Shown here: positions 30,495 to 53,213 of the stretch, piece by piece | Layout: each line of letters opens with the position of its first letter | Numbering within the stretch: the stretch's first letter is position 1 | Source of the DNA: Sneathiellales bacterium | GTDB taxonomy: Bacteria > Pseudomonadota > Alphaproteobacteria > JANQFL01 | Length of the DNA: 64,000 nt | Direction: 5' to 3' | Assembly (NCBI GenBank): GCA_028277845.1 | Contig: JANQFL010000103.1 | Coordinates: 1-64,000 of the forward strand | The notes under the pieces: generated by a model | What the model was told of the DNA's origin: nothing | What the model saw: the letters and a program-made list of their open reading frames with translations, nothing else | Database searches by the model: none | Position numbers and translations under genes: made by a program

Positions 30495-31412
30495 ATGGAG
30501 CTGCGTCAGCTTGGCCATTTTCTCGCGATCGTGGAGCACGGGTCGTTGGGCCGCGCGGCCCTGGCCCTCAACATCACGGAACCGGCGTTGAGCAAGAGCA
30601 TCCGGCGGCTGGAAGACAGCCTGCAGGTTTCGCTGTTCGACCGCGGCACGCGCGGCATGACCCGCACGCCGTTCGGCGATTCGTTTCTCCAACACGCCCG
30701 GCTGATCGTCGGCGAGATCGAGACCACGCGTCAGGAACTGGATGAACTGCGCGGTATCAGCCGCGGTATCGTCCGTATCGGCGCCCGGCCCAGTTTCAAT
30801 TTGACCGTATTGCCGCGGGCGGTTACCCGCATGCAAACGAGCCGGCCGGGCGTACAGGCCGTCGTGCGCGAAGGCTTCATGCCGAACCTGATCACCGAAG
30901 TCATTCAGGGCGACCTCGACTTTATCGTCGTGACCGAGGCGGACGATCTCGATCAAAGCCTCACACAGGAACCGTTGGCAATGAGCCCGGTCGGCCTGAT
31001 GGCCCAGGCCAACGATCCGCTGCTGCGGAAAGGCACGCTTGCCGCCGCCGACCTCGACGGCGCCAAATGGATCCTGCCGTTGCCGACCGATCCGATCCGC
31101 CGCCAATTGGAACACGCCCTCGGGACCATCGGCCTCGATCCGGTCAATGTCGTGGCGGAGTCCAATTCGGTTCTGTTCACCATGTCGTACATCCGCGAAA
31201 CCGGCGCGGTCGGTTTCCTGCCCCGCGCGACGATCGAGCTCGGGCTGGGCTGGGGCCGTGACGACCTTGCGTTCCTCGACGTGCCCGAACTGTCCTGGCA
31301 GCGGCAACTGAATATCATTCGCCGCCGCCGCGCCAGCCTGTCGCCACCGGCGCAATTGATGATCCGGGAATTGAAGGCGGTCAGCGAGGAACTTGGCGTC
31401 GGCATCACATAA
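30495..31412 (+). CDS. LysR-family transcriptional regulator
   Basis: 305 residues. The N-terminal winged helix is MELRQLGHFLAIVEHGSLGRAALALNITEPALSKSIRRLEDSL, followed by FDRGTRGMTRTPFG and a periplasmic-binding-like effector domain (RIGARPSFNLTVLPRAVTRM...). It is divergent from the TctCBA/enolase/AMDase unit and has a T-N11-A site just before its start, so it most likely activates that unit when the transported acid or an intermediate is present. The effector is unknown. Confidence 0.9.
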   Translation: MELRQLGHFLAIVEHGSLGRAALALNITEPALSKSIRRLEDSLQVSLFDRGTRGMTRTPFGDSFLQHARLIVGEIETTRQELDELRGISRGIVRIGARPSFNLTVLPRAVTRMQTSRPGVQAVVREGFMPNLITEVIQGDLDFIVVTEADDLDQSLTQEPLAMSPVGLMAQANDPLLRKGTLAAADLDGAKWILPLPTDPIRRQLEHALGTIGLDPVNVVAESNSVLFTMSYIRETGAVGFLPRATIELGLGWGRDDLAFLDVPELSWQRQLNIIRRRRASLSPPAQLMIRELKAVSEELGVGIT

Positions 31413-31464
31413 AGACGTACTCCCGTACGTTGGGCTCCATCCCCTGCCTGCGGACGCCGGTTTT

Positions 31465-31543
31465 CCAGCCCTACTTCAGCGCCCGGCCGAGATAATCCAC
31501 CGCCGCCTGGGTGCCGCCGGTGCCGTGGGGGGATGTCCAGTGC
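31465..31543 (-). pseudogene. 3'-end fragment of a class V aminotransferase gene
   Basis: About 75 bp almost identical to the last codons of the intact aminotransferase gene at 32670-33857 (including its stop codon), in the same orientation: three substitutions, then one extra G that shifts the frame after ...HGTGG (the minus-strand reading becomes LDIPPRHRRHPGGGG). Homology ends abruptly on the right, where AT-rich DNA begins. It is a direct repeat of a gene tail, not a functional gene. The 221-aa minus-strand ORF that runs through it is a shadow. Confidence 0.75.
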
Positions 31544-31572
31544 CTCCTTCCATTGCAAAGAAAAGATCGCAC

Positions 31573-31614
31573 CATCAAACCCTGGGATCAAACACCTAAA
31601 GCAAGGGTTTGATG
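31573..31614. repeat. 11-bp perfect inverted repeat
   Basis: CATCAAACCCT (31573-31583) and AGGGTTTGATG (31604-31614) are exact reverse complements with a 20-nt loop, just inside the left edge of the AT-rich island. It could be a bidirectional terminator for the LysR gene, lacking a clear T-run, or an element end. Confidence 0.55.
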
Positions 31615-31678
31615 TCATTTGCTATCCGTATTGGAATTAGTCGACCTGCTTGATTGAGACGCAACTTTCGCTACAGAA

Positions 31679-32260
31679 ATGCAACCATTAAGGATAGAAT
31701 ATTGTTTCGTTTCTGTTCAAATTATTGGGCCACCCGACAAGGAGTTAAAACCAAGATACGGATGTTTGGATATGTACTCACTCCTCAACATAGTCGGCGC
31801 TCTAGCCTCGATTGCGGGGCTTGTTTTAACAATTATTGCGATGGATTTCAGAACGGGCTCCGTCGTCGTGCCGACAATTCCATTGAAAAATCTTCCCTTA
31901 TTAATTCTAATATTTCTTGTTTTGGAATATTTATTTGCCCATTTTTTTATAACGTTACTTATGTGGTTCAATAGTCGAATTAATAATGCAACAATTTTTA
32001 TAGTTGGATTTATACTTCTTTTTCTTTCTGGCTGGCAATCGTCCGTTTTGTGTCAATATATCTGGGGAGTTTCTCCCAACTCATCTCTTGATTGGGCGAA
32101 ATACATAGCACTTGGCGCGTTCTGCGTCATTTTACATCCCATGCCTGTACTTGGCTCTTCTTCCAAATTGGAATCAGATTTCGATGATAGTTTTATGAAC
32201 ATGACTTTTGTTTTTGGGATACCTTTCTTTTTTGCTTTCATTACGGCAGGCCTAGGTTAA
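31679..32260 (+). CDS. Hypothetical integral membrane protein of the AT-rich island
   Basis: 193 residues if ATG 31679 is used, 162 if MYSLLNIVGA at 31772 is used; the second start begins directly with a transmembrane helix and is more protein-like. Four or five hydrophobic helices are visible: LLNIVGALASIAGLVLTIIA, PLLILIFLVLEYLFAHFFIT, ATIFIVGFILLFLSGW, AKYIALGAFCVILHP and FVFGIPFFFAFITAGLG. Base composition and codon choice (many A/T-ending codons) differ sharply from all neighbours, which points to recent transfer. I do not recognise the family and assign no function. Confidence 0.6.
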   Translation: MQPLRIEYCFVSVQIIGPPDKELKPRYGCLDMYSLLNIVGALASIAGLVLTIIAMDFRTGSVVVPTIPLKNLPLLILIFLVLEYLFAHFFITLLMWFNSRINNATIFIVGFILLFLSGWQSSVLCQYIWGVSPNSSLDWAKYIALGAFCVILHPMPVLGSSSKLESDFDDSFMNMTFVFGIPFFFAFITAGLG

Positions 32261-32669
32261 TTTTACCCGCGAAATTTTTGCTTTAACTTAACTCGGACTT
32301 GAGCATGTCGCTCTTTACATACCTGCAACAATACTGTTGGCGAGCTCCATAGGCGTTGGCATTGAAGTGTTGAATGCAAGGCCAAAAGCCACTTGGTCTA
32401 CTTTACCTAGTCAAACAAACTAAGTACGAAAACAGTCAATTAGATAATCTAGTCAGCCGCATAAGATTTGCCTGGATTAGTCCATTTTATGTCAGAGACG
32501 TGAAATGGCCATTGATGCTCGAAATGTTGCTGCCAGCAATTCAAAGCATCTTGAAGACAAGTGACTACCATTTACCCACGGTCACAATCGCGAGTTTCTC
32601 GCTGTACTTGCGTCCGGTCCAGGAAACGACTTGCAGGTTTTGGTTCTAGGGTTAGAGCTCCGCCCAGCC

Positions 32670-33857
32670 CTACTTCAGCGCCCGTCCCAAATAATCCACC
32701 GCCGCCTGGGTGCCGCCGGTGCCGTGGGGGATGTCGAGGGCGGCGAGGCCGGTTTCCAGGGCGCCGAGGGTGCCGAGCACCATGGGGGCGTTGGTGTGGC
32801 CCATGTGGGCGATGCGCAGGGCCTTGCCGTCCATTTCCTCGCCGATGCCGATGCCCAGCACCACGCCGCAGGTTTCGCGCACGAAGTCGAGCAGCCGCTG
32901 CGGATCGTAGCCCTGCTTGACCAGCACCGTGGTGACCGAGACGGCCCGTTCCTCGGGCCTTTCGATGTTGAAATCGAGCACCCCGCCGGTGCGCCAGACG
33001 TCGACCGCGGCATGCACGGCGCCGGCCAGCAGGCGATGGCGGCGGAAGGTGTTTTCCAGGCCTTCCTCGAGCAGGATGTCGAAGGCCTTGCGCAGGCCGA
33101 ACAGCAGGTGCTCGGGCGGCGTGCCGCAGTATTTCTGGTAGTGCAGCGGCCCGTCGCGCTGGGTCCAGTCCCAGTAGTAGGTGCGCAGGCCGGCCGACTG
33201 GTGGCGTTCGACCGCCTTGGGTCCGGCGGCGACGAAGCTGAGCCCCGGCGGCGTCATCAAACCCTTCTGCGAACCGGTCACGGCGATGTCGACGCCCCAG
33301 CTGTCCATGGCGAAGGGCATGCAGCCCAACGAGGCGATGCAGTCGACCATGAGCAGTGCGTCGCTGCCGGTGTCGTCCATGGCGGCGCGGATCGCCGGAA
33401 TGTCGTTGACCACGCCGGACGCGGTGTCGATCTGCACCACCAGGATGGCCTTGAAATCCTTGGCGTCGTCGGCCTGCAGGCGCGCCTTGAACGCCGCCAC
33501 GTCGACCGCCGCGTGCCAACTGCCGGGCAGCACCTCGACCTCGACGCCGAGCATGTCCGCCATCATGCCCCAGGCGGTGGCGAAGCGGCCGCTTTCCAGC
33601 ACCAGTACCTTGTCGCCGCGGTTGAGCACGTTGGTCAGGGCCGCCTCCCAGGCGCCGTGGCCGTTGGATGCGTAAATGTAGGCCCGGCCCTCGGTGCGGA
33701 AGACGGTGCGCAGGTCCTCGTGGCACGACGAGGTGATGTCGAGCAGCGAGCCGGAATAGATGTCCACGGCCGGGCGGTGCATGGCGTTGAGCACTTCATC
33801 GGGCACGTTGGTGGGACCGGGGATGGACAGGAATTCGCGGCCGTTGGCGACAGTCAT
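32670..33857 (-). CDS. Class V aminotransferase (serine/alanine-glyoxylate type)
   Basis: 395 residues, PLP-dependent fold type I. The N terminus reads FLSIPGPTNVPDEVLNAMHRPAVD as in alanine- and serine-glyoxylate aminotransferases; ASNGHGAWEAALTNVL precedes the cofactor site; LLMVDCIASLG gives the PLP-ring Asp; and VTGSQKGLMTPPGLSF holds the Schiff-base Lys. It probably transaminates glyoxylate with serine or alanine; 2-aminoethylphosphonate transaminase is less likely by sequence character. Its last 75 bp are duplicated at 31465-31543. It is divergent from the GST gene, with the structured leader between them. Confidence 0.87.
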   Translation of the reverse strand: MTVANGREFLSIPGPTNVPDEVLNAMHRPAVDIYSGSLLDITSSCHEDLRTVFRTEGRAYIYASNGHGAWEAALTNVLNRGDKVLVLESGRFATAWGMMADMLGVEVEVLPGSWHAAVDVAAFKARLQADDAKDFKAILVVQIDTASGVVNDIPAIRAAMDDTGSDALLMVDCIASLGCMPFAMDSWGVDIAVTGSQKGLMTPPGLSFVAAGPKAVERHQSAGLRTYYWDWTQRDGPLHYQKYCGTPPEHLLFGLRKAFDILLEEGLENTFRRHRLLAGAVHAAVDVWRTGGVLDFNIERPEERAVSVTTVLVKQGYDPQRLLDFVRETCGVVLGIGIGEEMDGKALRIAHMGHTNAPMVLGTLGALETGLAALDIPHGTGGTQAAVDYLGRALK

Positions 33858-37869: not shown

Positions 37870-38025
37870 ATATTTGTGCCTAGCAGCAGACACTCTCGAA
37901 ACCATTGACGGTTGGCGCGTTTCTGTATTCCCGACCGCGTCCGCGAATTGCCAGAATTTTGCAACCATCGCGCCACAAAACTGAAATCGAGTCAACATCG
38001 AACTGTCTTGAAGCGCCACTAACAT

Positions 38026-38066: not shown

Positions 38067-38957
38067 ATGTTCAAGAAATTTATCGCCGCCGCCGTCATGG
38101 TCGCGGGGCTGCTGACATTGCAATCTCCTGCCGTATCGGCGGAAAAGATCAGACTTGCCGTTACCGACCTGGTCGGGCTCGAGGAGCTGCAGCGTGAATT
38201 CGGCGCCTTCAAATCGGTGCTCGGCAAGGCGACCGGCTACGATATCGAATTTCTGCCGGTGACCAACCGGACGGCGGCCGTCGAGGCGCTGCGCTTCAAG
38301 AAGGTCGACTTCGTGCTGACCGGCCCGGCCGAATACGTGGTGATGAAGAAGCGCTCCAACGCCAGGATCGTCGTCGGTTTCTCCCGGCCCGACTATTTCG
38401 CCGTGCTGATCGCCCTGGCCGACAGCCCTTACACCATGGCCAAGGACCTCAAGGGCAAGAAGGTCGCCCTGGGCTCGGTGGGATCGACGTCGAAGCACCT
38501 CGGTCCGAGTCAGGTCATGGCCGACTACGGCCTGGATCCGATGAAGGATGTCCAGGTGATCCACACCAAGATGCCGGTTGCCTGGGAATCGCTCAAGAAG
38601 GGCGACGTTGCGGCGGTCGGTATGAACCACCTGAAGTTCCTCAGCTTCCGCAAGAAGGAAATGGAAAAGGGCGGGATGCCGCCGGGTGCCTTCCGTGTCG
38701 TCGGCCGCGGCCCCGATCTGCCCAACGACGTGCTGATGGTCGGCAGCCATGTGGACCAGGCCACCGTCGACAAGATGCGCAACGCGTTCGTCAAGCACTC
38801 CGACGAACTGGTGGGCGCCATCCTCAAGGGCGAGGACAATCAGAAGTACGAGGGCATGGCGTTCCTGAGCAACATTCAGGACAAGGATTACGACTATGTG
38901 CGGTCGATGTACCGTACGGTCGGGTATCCGGAATACGCCGATTTCATCGGCAACTGA
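38067..38957 (+). CDS. PhnD-type phosphonate/phosphite ABC transporter substrate-binding protein
   Basis: 296 residues. Signal peptide MFKKFIAAAVMVAGLLTLQSPAVSA, then IRLAVTDLVGLEELQREFGAFKSVLGKATGYDIEFLPV, the PhnD/PtxB/HtxB fold start; NRTAAVEALRFKKVDFVLTGPAEYVVMKK and LKGKKVALGSVGSTSKHLGP form the ligand cleft, the Ser/Thr cluster matching the phosphonate-binding P-loop. It is followed by its own ATPase (2-bp gap), permease, a PhnM paralogue and PhnN, making a second phosphonate-type importer distinct from 42.5-45.4 kb. The ligand may be another reduced or esterified phosphorus compound. Confidence 0.88.
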   Translation: MFKKFIAAAVMVAGLLTLQSPAVSAEKIRLAVTDLVGLEELQREFGAFKSVLGKATGYDIEFLPVTNRTAAVEALRFKKVDFVLTGPAEYVVMKKRSNARIVVGFSRPDYFAVLIALADSPYTMAKDLKGKKVALGSVGSTSKHLGPSQVMADYGLDPMKDVQVIHTKMPVAWESLKKGDVAAVGMNHLKFLSFRKKEMEKGGMPPGAFRVVGRGPDLPNDVLMVGSHVDQATVDKMRNAFVKHSDELVGAILKGEDNQKYEGMAFLSNIQDKDYDYVRSMYRTVGYPEYADFIGN

Positions 38958-38959
38958 CC

Positions 38960-39778
38960 ATGACCGCGGTTGCGCGCCTGGCAACCTTTGAAGGCAACGG
39001 GCAGGACGGGCCGCCGGCGAGCAGCCTGTCCCCCACCCCGGCGCTGCAGGTACGCCGGCTCAGTAAAAGTTTCACAGCCGGCGGCCAACCGGTCTTCCAC
39101 GACGTCACGTTCGATGTCCCGCAAGGACAGTCGGTGGCCCTGATCGGCGCCAACGGCGCCGGCAAGAGCACGTTGTTGCGCTGTTGCCTGCGCCTGGTCG
39201 AACCGGACAGCGGCGACATCGCGTTTCATGGCACGGATTTCGTCGCCGCCCGCCGTCAGGCGCTGCGCCGCATGCGTGCCCGCGTCGGTTTCGTGTTTCA
39301 GAAGCACAATCTGGTGCCGCGCCTGTCCGTGCTGACCAACGTCATGCATGGCGCCCTCGCCCGCGGTGTCGGACCGCGGTCGTGGTTCCAGGCGATCGCC
39401 CCCGGGGCGGAGCGCGAAAAAGCCATGGCGTGCCTCGAGCAGGTCGGTCTCGCCGACCTCGCGGACAGAAGGGCCGACCGGCTGTCGGGCGGTCAGTCGC
39501 AACGGGTCGCCATCGCCCGGTCCCTGATGCAGGACCCCGAGCTGATGTTCGCCGACGAACCGGTGGCGAGCCTCGACCCCGCGGCCGGCGAAGGCATCAT
39601 GGAACTGTTCGCGCGACTCAACCACGACCGCGGGCTGACCCTGGTGTTCGTCTCGCACCAGCTGGATCACGCGCTGCGCTATGCCGATCGGGTGCTGGGG
39701 CTCCGGGAAGGCGGCCTGGCGCTCGATGCCGCGAGCGCCGGCCGGACGCCCGGCTGTCTGCGCGGCCTGTATGACTGA
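38960..39778 (+). CDS. PhnC-type phosphonate ABC transporter ATPase
   Basis: 272 residues. After a 30-residue N-terminal extension (LATFEGNGQDGPPASS...), Walker A is GANGAGKST, the Q-loop region [26 protein letters not shown] is characteristic of PhnC, the signature is LSGGQSQRVAIARSLMQ and Walker B LMFADEPVASLDP. It works with the PhnD-like protein upstream and the permease downstream, whose ATG lies 8 bp inside this gene's end. Confidence 0.9.
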   Translation: MTAVARLATFEGNGQDGPPASSLSPTPALQVRRLSKSFTAGGQPVFHDVTFDVPQGQSVALIGANGAGKSTLLRCCLRLVEPDSGDIAFHGTDFVAARRQALRRMRARVGFVFQKHNLVPRLSVLTNVMHGALARGVGPRSWFQAIAPGAEREKAMACLEQVGLADLADRRADRLSGGQSQRVAIARSLMQDPELMFADEPVASLDPAAGEGIMELFARLNHDRGLTLVFVSHQLDHALRYADRVLGLREGGLALDAASAGRTPGCLRGLYD

Positions 39779-40580
39779 TACCGCGACAAGCCGGAGCGGG
39801 CCAAAACGCTTCGCCGCGCCCGAACCGCTGAAGGCCGCGCTGTTCGCCGGCGGTCTCGGGTTTTTCCTCTGGTCCCTGGCCGGCGCCGGCGTGTCGATCA
39901 GCGAACTGATTTCCGGCCTGCCCAACATGGGGGTCATCGCGTCGGAAATGGTGCCGCCGGCGACGGACCGCTTCCTGCCCATGCTGTGGTCGGTGCTGAC
40001 CACGTTTCAGATGGCGCTGGTCGGTACGGTCATCGGCGTCGTCATCAGCGTGCCGCTGGCCGTGCTCGCCGCCCGCAATCTGGCACCCCATCCGCTGATC
40101 CATGCCGCCGTGCGCGGGATCGTCAGTTTCCTTCGTACCGTGCCCGATCTGGCCTGGGCCTTGTTTTTCGTCGCCTCGGTCGGACTGGGCCCGTTTGCCG
40201 GAACGCTGACCATCATCGTCGACACGGTCGGGTTCTGTGCCCGCTTCTTCGCCGAGAACATGGAAGAGGCCGACCCCGGCCCCGGCGAAGCCATCGCCAC
40301 CCTGGGCGGCCGGCGCATCGACATCGTCGTCTGCTGCATCTTTCCGGCCGCCCTGCCGGCCATGATCAACACCAGCCTGTTCGCGTTGGAAAAGGCTGTG
40401 CGCTCGTCCGTCGTGCTCGGCCTGGTCGGCGCCGGAGGCATCGGCGCCGAACTGGCCGTGTCCATGGAAATGTTCCGCTACGACCAGGCCGCCACCATCG
40501 TGCTGATGATCTTCGTCCTGGTGCTCGGTGTCGAACGCTTCAGCTCATGGTCGCGGGGGCGGCTGATCGGAAGAGCCTGA
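39771..40580 (+). CDS. PhnE-type phosphonate ABC transporter permease
   Basis: 269 residues from ATG 39771, overlapping the ATPase stop; the track ORF start is upstream. About six hydrophobic segments, with VLTTFQMALVGTVIGVVISVPLAVLAARNL and FLRTVPDLAWALFFVASVGLGPFAGTLTIIVDTVG, typical of PhnE, and the EAA-like loop MEEADPGPGEAIATLGGRR. The final VGAGGIGAELAVSMEMFRYDQAATIVLMI is also PhnE-like. It imports the ligand of the upstream PhnD-like protein. Confidence 0.9.
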   Translation: MTDTATSRSGPKRFAAPEPLKAALFAGGLGFFLWSLAGAGVSISELISGLPNMGVIASEMVPPATDRFLPMLWSVLTTFQMALVGTVIGVVISVPLAVLAARNLAPHPLIHAAVRGIVSFLRTVPDLAWALFFVASVGLGPFAGTLTIIVDTVGFCARFFAENMEEADPGPGEAIATLGGRRIDIVVCCIFPAALPAMINTSLFALEKAVRSSVVLGLVGAGGIGAELAVSMEMFRYDQAATIVLMIFVLVLGVERFSSWSRGRLIGRA

Positions 40581-40609
40581 CCCATACCCGGAGAAAGAGA
40601 GTACGCCCG

Positions 40610-41770
40610 ATGGATCAATTCAATCCCCACCAGGTCACCGTCGTCGAGAACGCGCACGTCCTTACGCCCGAGGGCTGGCGCAAGGACGTCTCGCTCGTCA
40701 TCCGCGGCGGCCTGATCGAGGAGATTACCAAGCTGCGCCCCGCCGCCGATTTCTACCTGCCGGGCGAGGACCGTTATATCCTGCCGGGCATTGTCGATAT
40801 TCATGGCGACGCCTTCGAGAGGCACATCGCGCCGCGGGCCGGCGTCCAGTTTCCTGTCTCCATGGCGGTGCAGTTCAACGACGCCAGCCTCGTCGCGGCG
40901 GGTATCACGACCTTTTTCTACAGCATCACCGACGGTTTCGAACCCGGTCTGCGCAGCCGCCGCACCGTGCGCGAGATCATGCAGGCCCTTAACGATCATC
41001 GCGGCAAGCTGCTGTGCGATTCGCGCGTACACATTCGCCATGAACAGGCCAATACCGAGGATCATGACGAGCTGGTCGCCTGGATGAAGAGCGGGCAAAT
41101 CGACCTGTTGTCCCTCAACAACCACTTGCCGCCGGCCGGCAACCAAAAGGCCTTCGACCGCAGCGTCAACGGGCTCAGGCGCCGGGTCTCCATCAGCGAG
41201 CCGGAAGCCGTGGCGTATCTGCAGAACCTTCAGGCGCGAATTCCCGAGGGCAAGGTTCAAGTCGAGGAGCTGGCCCGGCTGGCCCGGGACCACGGCGTAC
41301 CTCTTGCATCTCACGACGACGCCAACGAAGCGGACGTTCGGCGCTCGCTCATGCTGGGCGTCGATATCGCCGAGTTTCCCATGACCATCGAGACCGCCCG
41401 TTCCTTCCGCGACGAAGGCGTGCACGTGGTCATGGGGGCGCCCAACGGCGTGCGCGGCAAGTCGCATCTGTCGGCGCTCAGCGTGCGAGAGGCGGTGGCC
41501 GCCGGGATCGTCGACGTGCTGTGCAGCGATTATCATTACCCCAGCCTGTTCCAGGTGCCCTTCCTGCTCAATCAACTGGGCGCGCTCGACCTGGCCGAGG
41601 CCTGGAAGCTGGTCAGCGCCAATCCCGCCCGCGCCGTCGGCCTGGAGGCGATCAAGGGCGGTATCGAACCCGGCATGGCGGCCGATGTTCTGCTGCTCAA
41701 CGCATTGACCGGTTCGGCCTTCGACCTCGACGGCGTTGTCGTCGGCGGCCGTGTCGTGCTGCAGCGTTAG
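40610..41770 (+). CDS. PhnM-family amidohydrolase (paralogue)
   Basis: 386 residues from ATG 40610 (GGAGAAAGAGAG upstream). A metal-dependent amidohydrolase: YILPGIVDIHGDAFERHIAPRAGV (metal His and PhnM-like HIAPR), DSRVHIRHEQAN, LASHDDANEADV, FPMTIETARSFRDEGVHVVMGAPNGVRGKSH and VLCSDYHYPSLF. True PhnM is a diphosphatase acting on alpha-D-ribose-1-methylphosphonate 5-triphosphate. A second, more canonical PhnM lies at 46670-47812. This copy has IHGDAF instead of LHTDNL and travels with its own importer and PhnN, so it may serve a related ribosyl-phosphorus intermediate. Confidence 0.83.
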   Translation: MDQFNPHQVTVVENAHVLTPEGWRKDVSLVIRGGLIEEITKLRPAADFYLPGEDRYILPGIVDIHGDAFERHIAPRAGVQFPVSMAVQFNDASLVAAGITTFFYSITDGFEPGLRSRRTVREIMQALNDHRGKLLCDSRVHIRHEQANTEDHDELVAWMKSGQIDLLSLNNHLPPAGNQKAFDRSVNGLRRRVSISEPEAVAYLQNLQARIPEGKVQVEELARLARDHGVPLASHDDANEADVRRSLMLGVDIAEFPMTIETARSFRDEGVHVVMGAPNGVRGKSHLSALSVREAVAAGIVDVLCSDYHYPSLFQVPFLLNQLGALDLAEAWKLVSANPARAVGLEAIKGGIEPGMAADVLLLNALTGSAFDLDGVVVGGRVVLQR

Positions 41771-41780
41771 GGCTTCCGGC

Positions 41781-42401
41781 ATGGGCCGATTTCCCGGCAC
41801 CCTCGTTCTCGTTCTCGTTGTCGGCCCGTCGGGCGCGGGCAAGGATACGATCCTGAACGGCGCCCGCCGGCTGCTGGCCGACGATCCACGCTTTTTCTTT
41901 CCCCGGCGCGCCATCACCCGCCCGGCCGACGCCGGCGGCGAGGACCACATCGCCGTCAGCGACCAGGATTACGACGCCATCCTGGCGCATGACGGCTTCG
42001 CGCTGCATTGGCAGGCGCACGGCCTGCGCTACGGCATTTCCCGCGGCATCGAGCGCGACCTGGCCCTCAACCGTTCGGTCGTCGTCAATGCCTCGCGCAC
42101 GATGATCGAAACGGCGCAGCACCTGTATCCGGGCACGCAGGCCATTTTCGTGACGGCGTCGCCACAGGTGCTGGCCGAACGGCTCGCGGCGCGCAACAGG
42201 GAAACCCATGACGCGATTCTGGCCCGCCTAAACCGGAAAACACCGTTGCCGACAACGGGAGATGGTATCTGGCACGTGCGCAACGATGGAACTGCCGACA
42301 CGGCGATCAATGCATTCGTCGCGATCCTCAAACGCATTGTTCTGCTCGGCTCCGGAACCGGGGTCTCGAGCGGGCCATCCGAATTACGCCCGTTCCAATG
42401 A
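41781..42401 (+). CDS. phnN: Ribose 1,5-bisphosphate phosphokinase
   Basis: 206 residues from ATG 41781 (MGRFPGTLVLVLVVGPSGAGKDTIL), where the Walker A GPSGAGKD is of the PhnN/guanylate-kinase type. Other conserved pieces: FFFPRRAITRPADAGGEDHIAVS, LHWQAHGLRYGI and VVVNASRTMIETA. It converts ribose 1,5-bisphosphate from the C-P lyase pathway to PRPP. It follows the PhnM paralogue by 10 bp and is the only phnN in the window, so it serves the phnG-M operon encoded on the other strand as well. Confidence 0.9.
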   Translation: MGRFPGTLVLVLVVGPSGAGKDTILNGARRLLADDPRFFFPRRAITRPADAGGEDHIAVSDQDYDAILAHDGFALHWQAHGLRYGISRGIERDLALNRSVVVNASRTMIETAQHLYPGTQAIFVTASPQVLAERLAARNRETHDAILARLNRKTPLPTTGDGIWHVRNDGTADTAINAFVAILKRIVLLGSGTGVSSGPSELRPFQ

Positions 42402-42432
42402 CTTCGACACTTGTCTAGCCGACGACACCGTT

Positions 42433-42483
42433 TTGTCATTTTGACTTCATGAAGCGGTCATCTTGACTTCATGAAGCGGTCAT
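42433..42483 (+). promoter_or_regulatory. Pho-box array of five heptamers
   Basis: Upstream of phnC five heptamers occur at exact 11-bp intervals: TTGTCAT (42433), ACTTCAT (42444), CGGTCAT (42455), ACTTCAT (42466) and CGGTCAT (42477), each followed by a 4-bp spacer. The alphaproteobacterial Pho box is CTGTCAT-N4-CTGTCAT, so this is an extended PhoB site able to bind several dimers in tandem. The last four units form an exact 22-bp tandem duplication. Phosphate-starvation control of the downstream phnCDE is the natural reading. Confidence 0.75.
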
Positions 42484-42484
42484 C
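42441..42484. repeat. Exact 22-bp tandem duplication in the phnC promoter
   Basis: TTGACTTCATGAAGCGGTCATC occurs at 42441-42462 and again, without a mismatch, at 42463-42484. Each copy contains the 10-bp palindrome CTTCATGAAG. Two helical turns per unit keep all PhoB half-sites on the same DNA face. Confidence 0.95.
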
Positions 42485-42522
42485 GCCGGTTGTTAGAGCA
42501 CGGTAGAGGAAAGGAGGCCGTC

Positions 42523-43386
42523 ATGACGCCTGCCATACACGTGCAAGATCTCAACAAGACCTTCGGCAAGAAGAAACGGGCGTTGCGTGACGTCAGCCTG
42601 AATGTGGCCGAGGGGGAAATGGTCGCACTGATCGGCGCCTCCGGTTCCGGCAAGTCCACGCTCATTCGCCATGTCGCCGGCCTGGTCGAGTCGGACAAGA
42701 CCGGCAGCCAGGTCGCGGTGTTCGGACAAACCATGCAATCCCAGGGCCGGCTGGCCGGCAATGTATCGGTTTTGCGCCGCGATATCGGTGTCATCTTTCA
42801 GCAGTTCAATCTGGTCGGGCGGCTCTCCGTCCTGACCAACGTCCTGGTCGGCCTGCTCGGATCGATCCCCGGCTGGCGCGGCGCCATGGCCCTGTTCACC
42901 CGGGACGAGAAGCAAACCGCCATGCAGGCCCTGCGCCGCGTCGGCATCGACGATACGGCGCTGCAGCGGGCCAATACCCTGTCGGGCGGCCAGCAGCAGC
43001 GGGCCGCCATCGCCCGGGCCCTGGTGCAGGGCGCACGGATCATCCTGGCCGACGAGCCGATCGCCTCGCTCGACCCGGCCTCGGCCAAGCGGGTGATGGA
43101 AACCCTGTCGTCGGTCAATGCCGGCGACGGCATCACGGTGCTGGTGTCGCTGCATCAGGTCGAATACGCACGCCGCTTCTGCCCGCGCACGGTGGCCATG
43201 CGGGACGGCGAGATCGTCTACGACGGTCCCAGCGCCGCGCTGACCAACGACTTCCTGCGCGAGATCTACGGCGAGGCCAGCGAGGAGTTGGTCCTGCCCG
43301 ATGCCAGCGATGGCGAAATCATCGTCGCGCCGATTCCGCGGCCGCACGAGTTCCCGGCCGCCGCCGAAGCCGTCGCGACGGCCTAG
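42523..43386 (+). CDS. phnC: Phosphonate ABC transporter ATPase
   Basis: 287 residues from ATG 42523, preceded by a strong AAAGGAGG; the track start is 11 codons earlier. Walker [11 protein letters not shown]-loop [34 protein letters not shown] (a very PhnC-like stretch), signature [17 protein letters not shown], Walker [14 protein letters not shown] and switch His in [15 protein letters not shown]. It has a longer C-terminal tail than usual. First gene of phnCDE behind the Pho-box array. Confidence 0.95.
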
Positions 43387-43437
43387 GTGTTGTTCCTGTC
43401 CATCCGCCCGTTCCACTCAGCAAGCTTGGAGACTTCC

Positions 43438-44493
43438 ATGAAACTCGTAAGAACCCTTGCCGTCGCCGCCTTGGTGTCGGCGGTGTCCTTCTCCGCTTCG
43501 GCGAAGAAGATCCACGTCAACAAGAACAGCGACGGCAAAGTTTTGATCAACGTCGGCCTACTGGCGACGGAATCCCAGGAAAACCTGATGAAGCGCTGGG
43601 GCCCGATCATCGACCTGATGGCGAAGAAGACCGGCTACGACGTGAAACCGTTCTTCGCGTCCGACTATGCCGGCGTCATCGAGGGCATGCGCTTCAACAA
43701 GGTCGATCTGGTGCTGTACGGCAACAAGTCGGCCATGGAAGCGGTCAAACGGGCCGATGCGGAAATCTTCGCCCAGGTCGTCGAGATCGGCGGCGGTCTC
43801 GGATATTACTCCGTGCTGCATACCCTGAAGTCGAACGACAAGATCAACTCGCTCGACGACGTCTTGAAGTGCGACAAGTCGATCAACTTCGGCATCGGCG
43901 ACCCCAACTCCACGTCGGGATTCCTCGTGCCGACCACGTTCATTTTCGCCAAGCACGGCGTCAACCCGCAGAAGTGCTTCAAGACCGTGCGCAACGCCAG
44001 CCATGAAACCAACCTGCTGTCGGTCGCCAACGGCCAGGTCACCGTGGCCACGGCCAACAACAAGGCCATGCACATCCGGCTGCAGCGCAATCACCCGGAG
44101 AAATACAACAAGCTCAAGGAAATCTGGCGCTCGCCGCTGATCCCGTCCGATCCGCTGGCCTATCGCGGCAATCTGCCTGCGGACGTCAAGGCCAAGATCT
44201 TCCACTTCTTTATCGGTCTCGGCCGCTTCGGCACGCCCGATGAGATCCGCAAGGAGCGGGCGATCATGAACTACGCCACCTTCGCCGGGTTCAAGCCGTC
44301 GTCCAACGCCCAGCTCTTCCCGATCCGCGAGATGGCCTTGAACAAGGACATCATGAAGGTCCAGGCGGACAAGAAGCTGTCGGCCGACGAGAAGAAGAAA
44401 AAGATCGCCGAGCTGACCAACAAGATCAAGGAGATCCAGGCCCTGGCCAACGAGATCCCCAACGATCTGGGACAGACCAAGCTCATCAACTGA
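43438..44493 (+). CDS. phnD: Phosphonate-binding periplasmic protein
   Basis: 351 residues from ATG 43438. Signal peptide MKLVRTLAVAALVSAVSFSASA. Family segments: LINVGLLATESQENLMKRWGPIIDLMAKKTGYDV, FASDYAGVIEGMRFNKVDLVLYGNKSAMEAV (the ligand-contacting region) and INFGIGDPNSTSGFLVPTTFIF, where Ser/Thr bind the phosphonate group. A Lys-rich C terminus (DKKLSADEKKKKIAELTNKI) is a normal feature of PhnD. It is encoded between the ATPase and permease. Confidence 0.95.
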   Translation: MKLVRTLAVAALVSAVSFSASAKKIHVNKNSDGKVLINVGLLATESQENLMKRWGPIIDLMAKKTGYDVKPFFASDYAGVIEGMRFNKVDLVLYGNKSAMEAVKRADAEIFAQVVEIGGGLGYYSVLHTLKSNDKINSLDDVLKCDKSINFGIGDPNSTSGFLVPTTFIFAKHGVNPQKCFKTVRNASHETNLLSVANGQVTVATANNKAMHIRLQRNHPEKYNKLKEIWRSPLIPSDPLAYRGNLPADVKAKIFHFFIGLGRFGTPDEIRKERAIMNYATFAGFKPSSNAQLFPIREMALNKDIMKVQADKKLSADEKKKKIAELTNKIKEIQALANEIPNDLGQTKLIN

Positions 44494-44579
44494 TGACGCG
44501 CCGGTACGGGCGGTGGCCGCATGCGGCCACCGCCCGCCCCTTTTGAACCCTCGCCCATCCCTACACGATTGGTCCCGCC

Positions 44580-45395
44580 ATGCCGGACGCCGCCGCGGTC
44601 AAGCCCGCCGAAGACATCGCCATTCCGAAAGAGGACTTGAGCCGCAGGCTCTACCGCTGGGCCATGTGGGGCGCCATCGGTATTATCCTCGCCTGGGGCT
44701 ACGGCCCGTCCGAGGTGCACAAGTTCACCAGCCTGTTCACCGACGCGGCCAACATGGCCGAATACGCGTCCGACTTTCTCGAACCGGATTTCCATGCCTG
44801 GGAGATCTATGTCGAACAGATGGTGCTGACCATCCAGATGGCCTTCTGGGGCACGTTCCTGGCCGTGGTGTTCGCCATCCCCTTCTCCTTGCTGTCGTCC
44901 AACAACATCGTGCCGTTCTGGATCGTGCAGCCGATCCGCCGCCTGATGGACGCCGCCCGGGCGATCAACGAAATCGTCTTCGCCGTGCTGTTCATCGTCG
45001 CCGTGGGGCTCGGCCCGTTCGCCGGGGTGATGGCCCTGTTCGTGCACAATGTGGGCGTCATCGCCAAGCTGTTTTCCGAGATCGTCGAAACCATCGACCA
45101 CCGGCCGGTCGAAGGCATCCGGGCGACCGGCGCCACGCGGCTGGAGGAAATCGTCTTCGGCGTGCTGCCCCAGGTGCTGCCCAACTGGATTTCGCTCTCG
45201 CTCTACCGGCTCGAGACCAATGTGCGCTCGGCGACGGTGCTCGGCATCGTCGGCGCCGGCGGCATCGGCTTCGTGCTGCACGAATCGATCCGCGCCTTCG
45301 AATACGGCAAGGCGTCGGCGATCATCATTGTCATCATCGTCGCCGTATCGCTGGTCGACATCATCTCCCAGCAACTGCGCAAGCTGGTGGTGTAA
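44580..45395 (+). CDS. phnE: Phosphonate ABC transporter permease
   Basis: 271 residues with about six transmembrane helices. PhnE motifs: MVLTIQMAFWGTFLAVVFAIPFSLLSSNNIVP, EIVFAVLFIVAVGLGPFAGVMALFVHNVGVIAKLFSE, EGIRATGATRLEEIVFGVLPQVLPNWIS (coupling loop) and TVLGIVGAGGIGFVLHESIRAFEY. It completes the second phosphonate importer. Its stop lies only 4 bp from the stop of the convergent DUF1045 gene. Confidence 0.95.
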   Translation: MPDAAAVKPAEDIAIPKEDLSRRLYRWAMWGAIGIILAWGYGPSEVHKFTSLFTDAANMAEYASDFLEPDFHAWEIYVEQMVLTIQMAFWGTFLAVVFAIPFSLLSSNNIVPFWIVQPIRRLMDAARAINEIVFAVLFIVAVGLGPFAGVMALFVHNVGVIAKLFSEIVETIDHRPVEGIRATGATRLEEIVFGVLPQVLPNWISLSLYRLETNVRSATVLGIVGAGGIGFVLHESIRAFEYGKASAIIIVIIVAVSLVDIISQQLRKLVV

Positions 45396-46095: not shown

Positions 46096-46677
46096 CTAGG
46101 CGGCTCGGCCGTTCCTGAGCGCAAGTTGCGCGAAGCCGAGATAATAGTCCAGATCTTCCGTCTCTGCGGCCGGATCCTTCGCCAGGTCGTCCCAACGGCG
46201 CAAGCGAATGGCCTCGCGGGCATGGGGCCGTTCGAGAAACGCTGCCGATTCCGGGCCGTCGAACGCGCCACCCTGCAGTTCGAGGCTGCGGACCGACCCG
46301 GGAGACAAGCCGTCGAAATAGCCGCCGTCGACGGCACAGAGATAGCGCTTGGCCGCGACATGAAGCTGAATCGGACCGGTGACGTCGGGCCCGAACCATT
46401 TGCCCAGATAGCCGCAGCCGATGTCCTCGTGCCGGCGGTCGATGCCGGCCTCGGCGGCCCCCTCGAAATGGGTGTCGACCAGATGGCCGATATCGTGCAG
46501 CAGCGCCGCGGTGATCAGATCCGCCGACGAACCGGCCGCCTCCGCATGGGCGGCGCACTGCAGGGCATGCTGCAATTGCGTCACCCGCTGTTCGCCATAG
46601 CGCTCGACGCCGGCGGTTTGCAGGATATGCGCGATTTCCTCGATCGGTGTCATGTCTCTCTCCCGCTTGTCATGCAA
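46096..46677 (-). CDS. HD-domain protein of phosphonate operons (PhnZ-like)
   Basis: 193 residues; an ATG at MTPIEEIAHILQTAG (46653) is an alternative start. The HD metal site is in QLQHALQCAAHAEA, AALLHDIGHLVDTHF and the conserved IQLHVAAKRYLC. It matches the HDIG-type family associated with phosphonate degradation, related to PhnZ, which oxidatively cleaves 2-amino-1-hydroxyethylphosphonate with a di-iron centre. The residues before the first metal His read RYGEQRVTQLQH, whereas PhnZ has YIGEAINQLEH, so the lid Glu and a Glu next to the His appear as Gln. No phnY is nearby. Confidence 0.8.
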   Translation of the reverse strand: MHDKRERDMTPIEEIAHILQTAGVERYGEQRVTQLQHALQCAAHAEAAGSSADLITAALLHDIGHLVDTHFEGAAEAGIDRRHEDIGCGYLGKWFGPDVTGPIQLHVAAKRYLCAVDGGYFDGLSPGSVRSLELQGGAFDGPESAAFLERPHAREAIRLRRWDDLAKDPAAETEDLDYYLGFAQLALRNGRAA

Positions 46678-47812
46678 TACGAACGCCTTCGCGCCAGACG
46701 CCGCGGATGAGCGGATGATGGGGCGTGTGGCGCACGCGAACGAAATCGGCGCGCTTGCCGATGGCGATCTCCCCCCGGTCGTGCAGACCGGCCGACTCCG
46801 CCGCCGTCTTGGTCACCGTGCGGATGGCCCGCGGCAGGTCATAACCCTCGACGTCGTCATAGAGCAGAAAGGCCGCGTGCAGCAGGCTGTTGGGGACATA
46901 ATCGCTGGAGAAAATGTCCAGCAGGTCGTCCTCGGCCAGGGTCTGCGCAGACACGTTACCCGAATGGGAACCGCCGCGCACCAGATTGGGCGCGCCCATC
47001 ATGACGCAAAGGCCGTTGCCGTGGGAGGCCCGGGCCGCCTCGACCGTCGTCGGAAATTCGGCGATCGACATGCCGTCGGCGACCGCTTCGTCCACATGAG
47101 CCGTCGTGGCGTCGTCGTGGCTGGCCAGACTGAGACCCAATGCCTTGGCCCGGTCGACCACATGGCGCCGGTTCGGCGCGCTATGACGGCGCTGGTCTTC
47201 CTTGCGCAAGGCGACGAAGGTATCCATCTCGGCGTCGCTCATGCCGAACTTGCCCTGATAGTAGATGCGGTATTTTTCCTCGGCCACGAACTGCCGTTGA
47301 CCGGGCGTGTGATCCATGACCGAAACGAGCCGCACCAACGGGCTGTCCATGATGGGGTCGAGCAATTCCTGCAAATCGGGGTACGACACCTCGCAGCGCA
47401 GGTGGATCAAGTGATCGGCCCGCAACAGGTCGTCGCGCACGCCGGTTTCGATGGCGCAGACCATTTCGCGCAGCCGCTTGATCCGGGCGCTGGTCTCGGA
47501 CAAGGCGCCGACGGCAATGGCGTCGAACACCGTGGTGATTCCGGAGACGGCGACCTGGCTGTCGTGGGCGATCAGCGCCGCCGTGGCCGGCCATTCGGTC
47601 TGCGGCCGGGGCGTCATATGACCTTCCAGATTGTCGGTGTGCAGTTCGACCAGCCCGGGGATCAACAGATCACCTTCCAGGTCGCGGGCCTCCGGCAGGG
47701 ATGAAGGCCCGCTGTCGATGTCGCTGATCAGGCCGTCCTCGATGACCACCGTGCCGGGCACGACGTCGTTTTCGAGCACCAGCCGGGCATTGGTCAGCAC
47801 ATGGTCTTTCAT
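46670..47812 (-). CDS. phnM: Alpha-D-ribose 1-methylphosphonate 5-triphosphate diphosphatase
   Basis: 380 residues from ATG 47812, overlapping the phnL stop by ATGA; the longer track ORF is a shadow extension. Canonical PhnM motifs: LLIPGLVELHTDNLEGHMTPRP with metal His, LIHLRCEVSYPDL, LVSVMDHTPGQRQF, LSLASHDDATTAHVDEAV and FPTTVEAARASHGNGLCVMMGAPNLVRGGSHSGNVSA, and IFSSDYVPNSLLHAAF. It removes pyrophosphate from the PhnI product before PhnJ acts. It overlaps the HD-domain gene by 8 bp. Confidence 0.94.
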   Translation of the reverse strand: MKDHVLTNARLVLENDVVPGTVVIEDGLISDIDSGPSSLPEARDLEGDLLIPGLVELHTDNLEGHMTPRPQTEWPATAALIAHDSQVAVSGITTVFDAIAVGALSETSARIKRLREMVCAIETGVRDDLLRADHLIHLRCEVSYPDLQELLDPIMDSPLVRLVSVMDHTPGQRQFVAEEKYRIYYQGKFGMSDAEMDTFVALRKEDQRRHSAPNRRHVVDRAKALGLSLASHDDATTAHVDEAVADGMSIAEFPTTVEAARASHGNGLCVMMGAPNLVRGGSHSGNVSAQTLAEDDLLDIFSSDYVPNSLLHAAFLLYDDVEGYDLPRAIRTVTKTAAESAGLHDRGEIAIGKRADFVRVRHTPHHPLIRGVWREGVRIA

Positions 47813-48510
47813 GCCGCCCGCTGCCCCAGTTCGGCCGTGTCCAGAACGCGGGTCGCCACGGTTTCGCGTGCCTCCCGGTCGTGGAAAATGCCGATGACGG
47901 CGCTGCCCCGCTCGCGCGCTTCCAGGATCAGCGACAGAACGATCCGCTTGTTGGCGGCATCCAGACTGGCCGTCGGTTCGTCGAGCAGCAGGATGGGATA
48001 GGGGTGCACGAAACCCCGGGCGATGTTGACCCGCTGCTGCTCGCCGCCCGAAAAGGTGACCGGCGACAACGACCACAGCCGTTCCGGCACATTCAGGCGG
48101 GTGAGCATGTTACCTGCCTCGACCAGGGCCTGGTCGGCGTCCATGCCGACGGCGCGCAACGGCTCGGCGACGACGTCGATGGTCGGGACGCGGGGCACGA
48201 CACGGAGGAACTGGGAGACATAGCCCATGGTGCGTCGCCGCACATCGAGAACACGGTGCGGATGGGCTGATGCCATGTCGACCCAAGCGCCGTCATGATG
48301 CACCAGGATGCGTCCTTGCGGACAGGTATAGTTGGCGTGGATCATGCGGATCAGCGTGCTCTTGCCGATGCCGGACGGCCCGGCCAGCGCGACGCATTCG
48401 CCGGCCTCGACGGTCAGGTCCAGGCTTTCGAACACCGGCAGTTCGACGCCGCCCTGAACATGCAGGGTGAAACTCTTGCCCACGTTTTCCAGCTTCAGCA
48501 TGGTCGTCAT
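47809..48510 (-). CDS. phnL: C-P lyase accessory ABC protein PhnL
   Basis: 233 residues. Walker A GPSGIGKST, PhnL-specific VDMASAHPHRVLDVRRRTMGYVSQFLRVVPRVPTIDVVAEPL, signature FSGGEQQRVNIARGFVH and Walker B ILLLDEPTASLDAANKR. It lacks any permease partner and is a soluble component associated with the PhnGHIJK core. Overlaps phnM by ATGA and follows phnK after 7 bp. Confidence 0.94.
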   Translation of the reverse strand: MTTMLKLENVGKSFTLHVQGGVELPVFESLDLTVEAGECVALAGPSGIGKSTLIRMIHANYTCPQGRILVHHDGAWVDMASAHPHRVLDVRRRTMGYVSQFLRVVPRVPTIDVVAEPLRAVGMDADQALVEAGNMLTRLNVPERLWSLSPVTFSGGEQQRVNIARGFVHPYPILLLDEPTASLDAANKRIVLSLILEARERGSAVIGIFHDREARETVATRVLDTAELGQRAA

Positions 48511-52393: not shown

Positions 52394-52409
52394 CGACAGT
52401 TTACTCACT

Positions 52410-52419
52410 TGTCTAGACA
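52410..52419. promoter_or_regulatory. Palindromic operator candidate for PhnF
   Basis: TGTCTAGACA is a perfect 10-bp palindrome in the phnG-phnF divergent gap, 16 bp before phnG ATG 52393 on the minus strand. It shares the TG-TAGAC-A core of TGGTATAGACCA reported for mycobacterial PhnF. The extended string ACTTGTCTA recurs before phnC (42409) and before the LeuC-type gene (13873). Confidence 0.55.
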
Positions 52420-52481
52420 GATTTCATCTCAAGTCCTACACTCCTATGGTTTCCGTCGCTTGACAGCCATGTGAACATTTT

Positions 52482-53213
52482 ATGACGCGCACCATCGACC
52501 GGCAGGCCTTGCTACCCCTGTGGCAGCAAATCCGCGATGTCCTGGCCGACGAAATCCGCACCGGCGTTCTGGGCGCGGACGGTAAGCTGCCGTCGGCTGG
52601 CCGCCTGGCGGAACGCTTCGGCGTCAACCGCCATACGGTGCGGCAGGCGTTGATGGCGCTGGAGGAATCCGGCCTCACCCAGACCCGGCAGGGGGCGGGC
52701 AGTTATGTGGTCGGCCGCGTCGTCGACTACCCCATCTCGCGCCACACACGGTTTTCGGAAATCGTGCTGAAACAGGGCATGGAACCGTCCGGGGAAGTGC
52801 TGCGGGATACGGAGAAAACCGCCAGCAAGGAAGTCGCCGACGCTCTCGCCGTCAAACACAACGCGCGTGTCATCATGATTGAACGCACGTGCCGGGCCGA
52901 CGGTCTGCTCATCGGCATCACCCGGCACCACTTCCCGGCCACCCGGTTTCGCAAATTGGGCCGTATCGTCCGGGAGACGTTCAGCATCTCCGACGCCTAT
53001 CGGCGAGTCGGTATCAAAAACTATTACCGCAGCGCGACCACGGTCTCGTCACGCCTGCCGACATCGCGCGAGGCCCGGCTTCTCGGCCAGCCGGCCTCCC
53101 ATCCGGTACTCGTCTCGAAGGCCGTCAATATCGATGAGGACGGACGGCCGATCGAATACGGTGTCACGCTGTTTTTGTCAGACCGGGTTTGCCTGCGATT
53201 TGGCGGACTGTAA
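52482..53213 (+). CDS. phnF: GntR/HutC-type regulator of phosphonate metabolism
   Basis: 243 residues. The winged helix is LWQQIRDVLADEIRTGVLGADGKLPSAGRLAERFGVNRHTVRQALMALEESGLTQTRQGAGSYV, and the UTRA effector domain follows (DYPISRHTRFSEIVLKQG, VIMIERTCRADGLLIGITRHHFP, RPIEYGVTLFLSDRVCLRF). It matches PhnF proteins that repress phn genes and respond to phosphonates or their metabolites. Divergent from phnG with a 10-bp palindrome in between. About 210 bp of non-coding DNA with no recognisable feature follow it. Confidence 0.92.
   Translation: MTRTIDRQALLPLWQQIRDVLADEIRTGVLGADGKLPSAGRLAERFGVNRHTVRQALMALEESGLTQTRQGAGSYVVGRVVDYPISRHTRFSEIVLKQGMEPSGEVLRDTEKTASKEVADALAVKHNARVIMIERTCRADGLLIGITRHHFPATRFRKLGRIVRETFSISDAYRRVGIKNYYRSATTVSSRLPTSREARLLGQPASHPVLVSKAVNIDEDGRPIEYGVTLFLSDRVCLRFGGL

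Follow-up and report, generated by a model that had tools for sequence, protein, structure and literature searches.

The window, that is, the whole 64,000-nucleotide stretch of DNA analysed here, carries a phosphonate gene cluster in which an array of 11-bp-spaced heptamers precedes phnC, phnD and phnE (Table 1). Each of these three genes exceeds its NCBIfam cut-off. A phnD-phnC-phnE-like set is found further upstream at 38067-40580, with phnE over and the other two genes under the cut-off, and is accompanied by phnM and phnN. On the opposite strand we detected phnG, phnH, phnI, phnJ, phnK, phnL and phnM together with a conserved phosphonate-operon protein, and a GntR regulator gene, phnF, lies next to phnG. 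The cluster comprises two phnCDE-type transporter sets (the upstream set and the one at 42523-45395) and two phnM genes, which belong to different subfamilies (40598-41770 and 46670-48076). At 31000-33000, the GC content falls to 0.41 against a background of 0.65. This AT-rich patch is possibly acquired DNA; within it, an isolated Pho-like pair is located on the minus strand (32184).

Table 1. Features of the phnCDE promoter region and associated genes in the window.
Feature	Positions	Strand	Remarks
PhnF-operator-like site CTTGTCTAGCCGAC (putative)	42410-42423	+	matches CTTGTCTAGACAAG at 11/14 letters; shortly before the array
Weak in-register sixth heptamer ACGACAC	42422-42428	+	passes 2-bit heptamer threshold in array scan
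Heptamer 1, TTGTCAT	42433-42439	+	outside the duplication
Tandem duplication, TTGACTTCATGAAGCGGTCATC twice	42441-42484	+	copies 42441-42462 and 42463-42484, head to tail
Heptamer 2, ACTTCAT	42444-42450	+	
Heptamer 3, CGGTCAT	42455-42461	+	
Heptamer 4, ACTTCAT	42466-42472	+	copy of heptamer 2
Heptamer 5, CGGTCAT	42477-42483	+	copy of heptamer 3; promoter-proximal
Predicted -10 element TAGAGC	42494-42499	+	10 bp after heptamer 5; placed by position from relatives
Ribosome binding site AAAGGAGG	42510-42517	+	
phnC, phosphonate ABC transporter ATP-binding protein	42523-43386	+	TIGR02315, 302 bits, cut-off 266.1
phnD, phosphonate-binding protein	43432-44493	+	TIGR03431, 284.6 bits, cut-off 261.1
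phnE, permease	44580-45395	+	TIGR01097, 299.8 bits, cut-off 216.7
phnF, GntR regulator	52482-53213		divergent from phnG; TIGR02325, 215 bits, cut-off 156.8

Probable Pho-box identity of the heptamer array

A sequence-only reading of this DNA had placed five NNNTCAT heptamers ahead of phnCDE. All five are present in the sequence, with a spacer of 4 bp between consecutive heptamers. If the weak ACGACAC is added, the array can be read as five strong heptamers and one weak one. Pattern searches of the 5.39 Mb genome returned the array as the sole match, both for TCAT-N7-TCAT-N7-TCAT without mismatch and for four TCAY in register. A chance origin of the array is excluded; the independent heptamers number only three, since heptamers 4 and 5 are copied from heptamers 2 and 3.

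To describe the motif, a matrix was learned from the upstream regions of 68 phnC homologues, the window being excluded (proteins 52-68% identical, mostly from Alpha- and Betaproteobacteria), with an EM motif finder that used two tied 11-bp units and started from NNKTCAT. The learned motif, C[CT][GT]TCA[CT]NNAA, is the Pho box, that is, two C[CT][GT]TCA[CT] heptamers 11 bp apart, and reached a log-likelihood of 316 versus 21-30 in ten shuffled sets treated alike. Among 127,966 positions scored with this matrix, the pairs of heptamers 2 and 3 and of heptamers 4 and 5 both rank 3 (13.55 bits each), followed by heptamers 3 and 4 (rank 11) and heptamers 1 and 2 (rank 14). The comparison of adjacent pairs with background thus left the Pho-box reading standing. 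The weak heptamer paired with heptamer 1 (42422-42439) scores 11.35. While genome-wide rarity was taken from the pattern searches, matrix scoring covered the window and the genome's own loci, where 13 of the 435,664 scored positions reach or exceed the best window pairs.

The assignment of Pho boxes to the region before phnCDE was corroborated by homologous promoters, in which this motif is found at the corresponding position. Arrays of at least two heptamers (p <=0.02 against their own shuffles) were obtained for 59 of the 68 relatives and also for the window. The genome's own pst promoter bears the same motif (18.1 bits) within a multi-heptamer array. On contig C20 of the same genome we found the gene order phoR-pstS-pstC-pstA-pstB-phoU-phoB. 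Its PhoB scores 347.6 bits with TIGR02154 (curated cut-off 296.2), the DNA-binding domain aligns with the E. coli PhoB chains 3t72 and 1gxp (E about 5e-26), and in the recognition-helix region, VYVE.RTVDVHIRRLRKA, all but one position are the same as in E. coli PhoB. The prediction that the heptamers are PhoB sites is well supported. As the best explanation, we consider it very probable that the phnCDE promoter has a composite PhoB operator at 42422-42483, and from this we infer binding and activation by PhoB.

The repeated unit could instead be chiefly the operator of another dimeric regulator, its likeness to a Pho box being secondary. Such a regulator would read the perfect 10-bp palindrome CTTCATGAAG, which occurs twice (42445-42454 and 42467-42476), the two copies being 22 bp or two helical turns apart, and the GntR regulator gene phnF sits in the same cluster. 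However, homologous promoters keep the direct heptamer repeat and not the palindrome (2 of 108 junctions palindromic), and the putative PhnF operator of the cluster has a different palindrome, CTTGTCTAGACAAG. Moreover, a common combination of Pho heptamer and spacer, TTCAT plus GAA, is enough to make CTTCATGAAG. For its lack of conservation the palindrome was rejected as the main element, and we regard a non-Pho operator of this kind as highly improbable.

An exact 22-bp duplication within the array

The distinctive feature of the array is its exact duplication. The proposed 22-bp tandem repeat was confirmed, its two copies being identical at 22 of 22 positions. TRF assigned 42435-42484 a period of 22 with 2.3 copies and a 96% match. 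Heptamer 1 shares its GTCAT with heptamers 3 and 5, which extends the period back to 42435; the one difference within this stretch is at 42440/42462.

Repeats of this kind might also arise from constraint on a shared motif. Compared with itself at a shift of 22, however, the array is identical at 22/22 positions, whereas the best of 17 other four-heptamer arrays reaches 14/22, and for two units taken independently from the motif the expected agreement is about 10.6 of 22 positions. Shared constraint therefore fails to explain the repeat and tandem duplication does, as the sequence-only reading had held for the last four heptamers. That is, one copying of a 22-base piece accounts for the five or six predicted PhoB sites in a row. 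Without one 22-bp copy, the operator would equal a three-heptamer array, as found in relatives. We propose that an ancestral operator of three heptamers (four with the weak one) would have been lengthened by one 22-bp tandem duplication. As 22 bp correspond to two helical turns, all heptamers lie on the same face of the helix. The perfect identity of the copies suggests, without proof, that the duplication is recent.

Since the assembly is a draft of 124 contigs and repeats are prone to mis-assembly, we also considered that the second copy is an artefact. But the array is about 50 bp long and below the usual read length, and the copies sit within unique sequence and differ in their flanking letters (42440 T, 42462 C). 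The chance of an artefact is in our view close to negligible.

Promoter layout and a putative PhnF input

Homologous arrays mostly end 35-75 bp before the phnC start, and in the window the phnC start is 39 bp downstream of the array. No sigma-70 consensus promoter was found in 42350-42560. When 54 relatives were aligned by their last heptamer, 27 had T at +11 and 34 had A at +12; the corresponding TAGAGC of the window is a weak -10 candidate. PhoB-dependent promoters are laid out in this way, with sigma-70 polymerase recruited by the PhoB that occupies the proximal pair. For phnCDE, low phosphate would be sensed by the Pst system, upon which PhoR would activate PhoB by phosphorylation, and phosphorylated PhoB would bind to the 11-bp-spaced heptamers in head-to-tail orientation. 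Heptamers 4 and 5, the pair nearest the promoter, would occupy the -35 position, 10 bp before the weak -10 element, and because a consensus promoter is lacking there, PhoB on this pair would recruit the sigma-70 RNA polymerase. The upstream heptamers would supply one further dimer site, perhaps two.

What the additional sites contribute is a matter separate from the Pho-box reading. They may help through cooperative binding, and the sequence-only reading had supposed that the doubled site could make the importer's response to phosphate starvation steeper or stronger. The extra 22-bp copy might, however, be neutral in function. It would then be a product of slippage, perhaps occupied by PhoB but without effect on the control of phnCDE, because contact with RNA polymerase would be made by the promoter-proximal pair only. 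This explanation disputes a functional role of the duplication, not the identity of the sites, and we give it slightly less than an even chance. It fits the canonical place of the proximal pair as well as the array length among homologous promoters, which ranges from 2 to 4 with no sign of a constraint on number, and direct repeats are known substrates of slippage. However, Pho promoters across the class repeatedly show arrays of several sites, an indication that additional sites are retained for some reason, and in the case of ArcA the repeat architecture is reported to determine how long the footprint is and how occupancy responds to concentration (PMC3798270). A bolder view, which we think unlikely, is that the PhoB operator acts as a slippage-prone minisatellite: the 11-bp heptamer periodicity would let 22-bp units come and go in helical phase, so that one, two or more copies would be found among strains of this lineage, which would differ in the sharpness of their phosphonate-uptake switch.

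Just upstream of the array lies a putative PhnF-type operator that the sequence-only reading had overlooked (Table 1). Matches to CTTGTCTAGACAAG occur only twice in the window (0.51 expected), namely at this candidate site, which has 3/14 mismatches and a degraded right half, and in the phnF-phnG intergenic region, where a near-complete palindrome is located at 52408-52421. Sites resembling TTGTCTAGACAA with at most two mismatches were detected in 14 of the 69 phnC upstream regions versus 0.5% of shuffled ones; they sit near the start codon or, as in the window, about 90-120 bp before it. It is the link to phnF that leads us to take the candidate as a PhnF operator. Through it, the cluster's own GntR regulator may provide a second input to the phnCDE promoter.

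Pho-like sites are also found at other promoters of the cluster. A Pho array on the minus strand of the phnF-phnG intergenic region (52442-52488, GCGTCAT aaaa TGTTCAC atgg CTGTCAA) scores highest in the window with the matrix (16.4 bits) and adjoins the near-perfect PhnF palindrome; the C-P lyase operon is probably under the same two inputs, PhoB and PhnF. The Pho-like pair GCGCCACAAAACTGAAAT (37970-37987, plus strand) scores 12.9 bits and is located some 80 bp upstream of the start of the first phnD (38067), and this other phosphonate transporter operon may be controlled by PhoB as well.

Array length among PhoB operators

According to the sequence-only reading, ordinary Pho boxes have two heptamers. 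This did not hold, since arrays of three to four are present in relatives, in the genome's own pst promoter, at other Pho genes of the class and in the literature (PMC4415409, PMC3798270). Applying the 2-bit threshold, by which the window has six in-register heptamers including the weak ACGACAC, we counted three or four in 32 of the 68 relatives, a figure that is perhaps inflated and partly in-sample because the same relatives trained the matrix. A less refined criterion, three or more of the four TCAT letters in each heptamer, gave 16 relatives with at least three heptamers. Within the phnC promoter set (window plus 68 relatives) the array is the longest, owing to the exact 22-bp duplication.

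When 385 genomes of the class were scanned blind for four TCAY in steps of 11 bp, 39 of them gave matches. Several of these matches lie before genes for PhoX phosphatases, for PPK2 and for PhnC-type ATPases, and one before a GDPD gene. Many other matches were 11-bp minisatellites in which TCAY is preceded by A and were set aside as not Pho-like. The array at the GDPD (glycerophosphodiester phosphodiesterase) gene, locus L163 (G079:C97:15287-15345 and beyond) of another genome in the class, has six perfect TCAY heptamers spaced 11 bp apart; if only perfect heptamers are counted, it is longer than that of the window. In the genome collection used here, searches for comparison genomes at the genus, family and order level returned only the present genome, and a DNA search of the 40 nearest genomes matched only the coding part of phnC. 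Since multi-site switches are common in related bacteria, the array is long but ordinary. It is a new, unusually long case of the known multi-box PhoB operators, and its unusualness had been overstated.

The array leaves existing knowledge of Pho boxes unchanged. Its value is that of a clean natural case in which the operator of a response regulator was lengthened by one exact, phase-keeping duplication, and the contrast between one copy and two is suited to asking what extra PhoB dimer sites do. The neighbouring PhnF-type site further points to a possible two-input promoter for phosphonate import, served by PhoB and PhnF.

The Pho box consists of 11-bp units with seven conserved and four less conserved letters (PMC4415409). 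Like the E. coli Pho box, the window array is composed of head-to-tail 11-bp units beside the promoter of a phosphate-starvation transporter, but compared with the minimal two-unit box it has five strong units and one weak one, four of them from an exact duplication. Multiple PHO boxes have been described at E. coli ugp, and simple as well as complex operators in S. coelicolor (PMC4415409). With ugp and the complex operators of Streptomyces PhoP the array shares more than two in-register direct repeat units; unlike these, it is of the alphaproteobacterial type, is located at phnCDE and includes an exact tandem copy. Most E. coli ArcA sites comprise three to five 11-bp direct repeats, and multiple repeats were noted for PhoB too (PMC3798270). 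ArcA likewise belongs to the OmpR/PhoB family of response regulators and shows 11-bp spacing with mostly more than two repeats, although regulator and signal are different and its action is mainly repression. The array also resembles phnC promoters of related Alpha- and Betaproteobacteria (for example loci L026, L139, L009, L028 and L010), which carry 11-bp-spaced Pho heptamers, often three to four, at a similar distance from phnC. In none of the related phnC promoters, in contrast to the window, does the number of perfect TCAT heptamers reach five or the 22-bp identity exceed 14/22.
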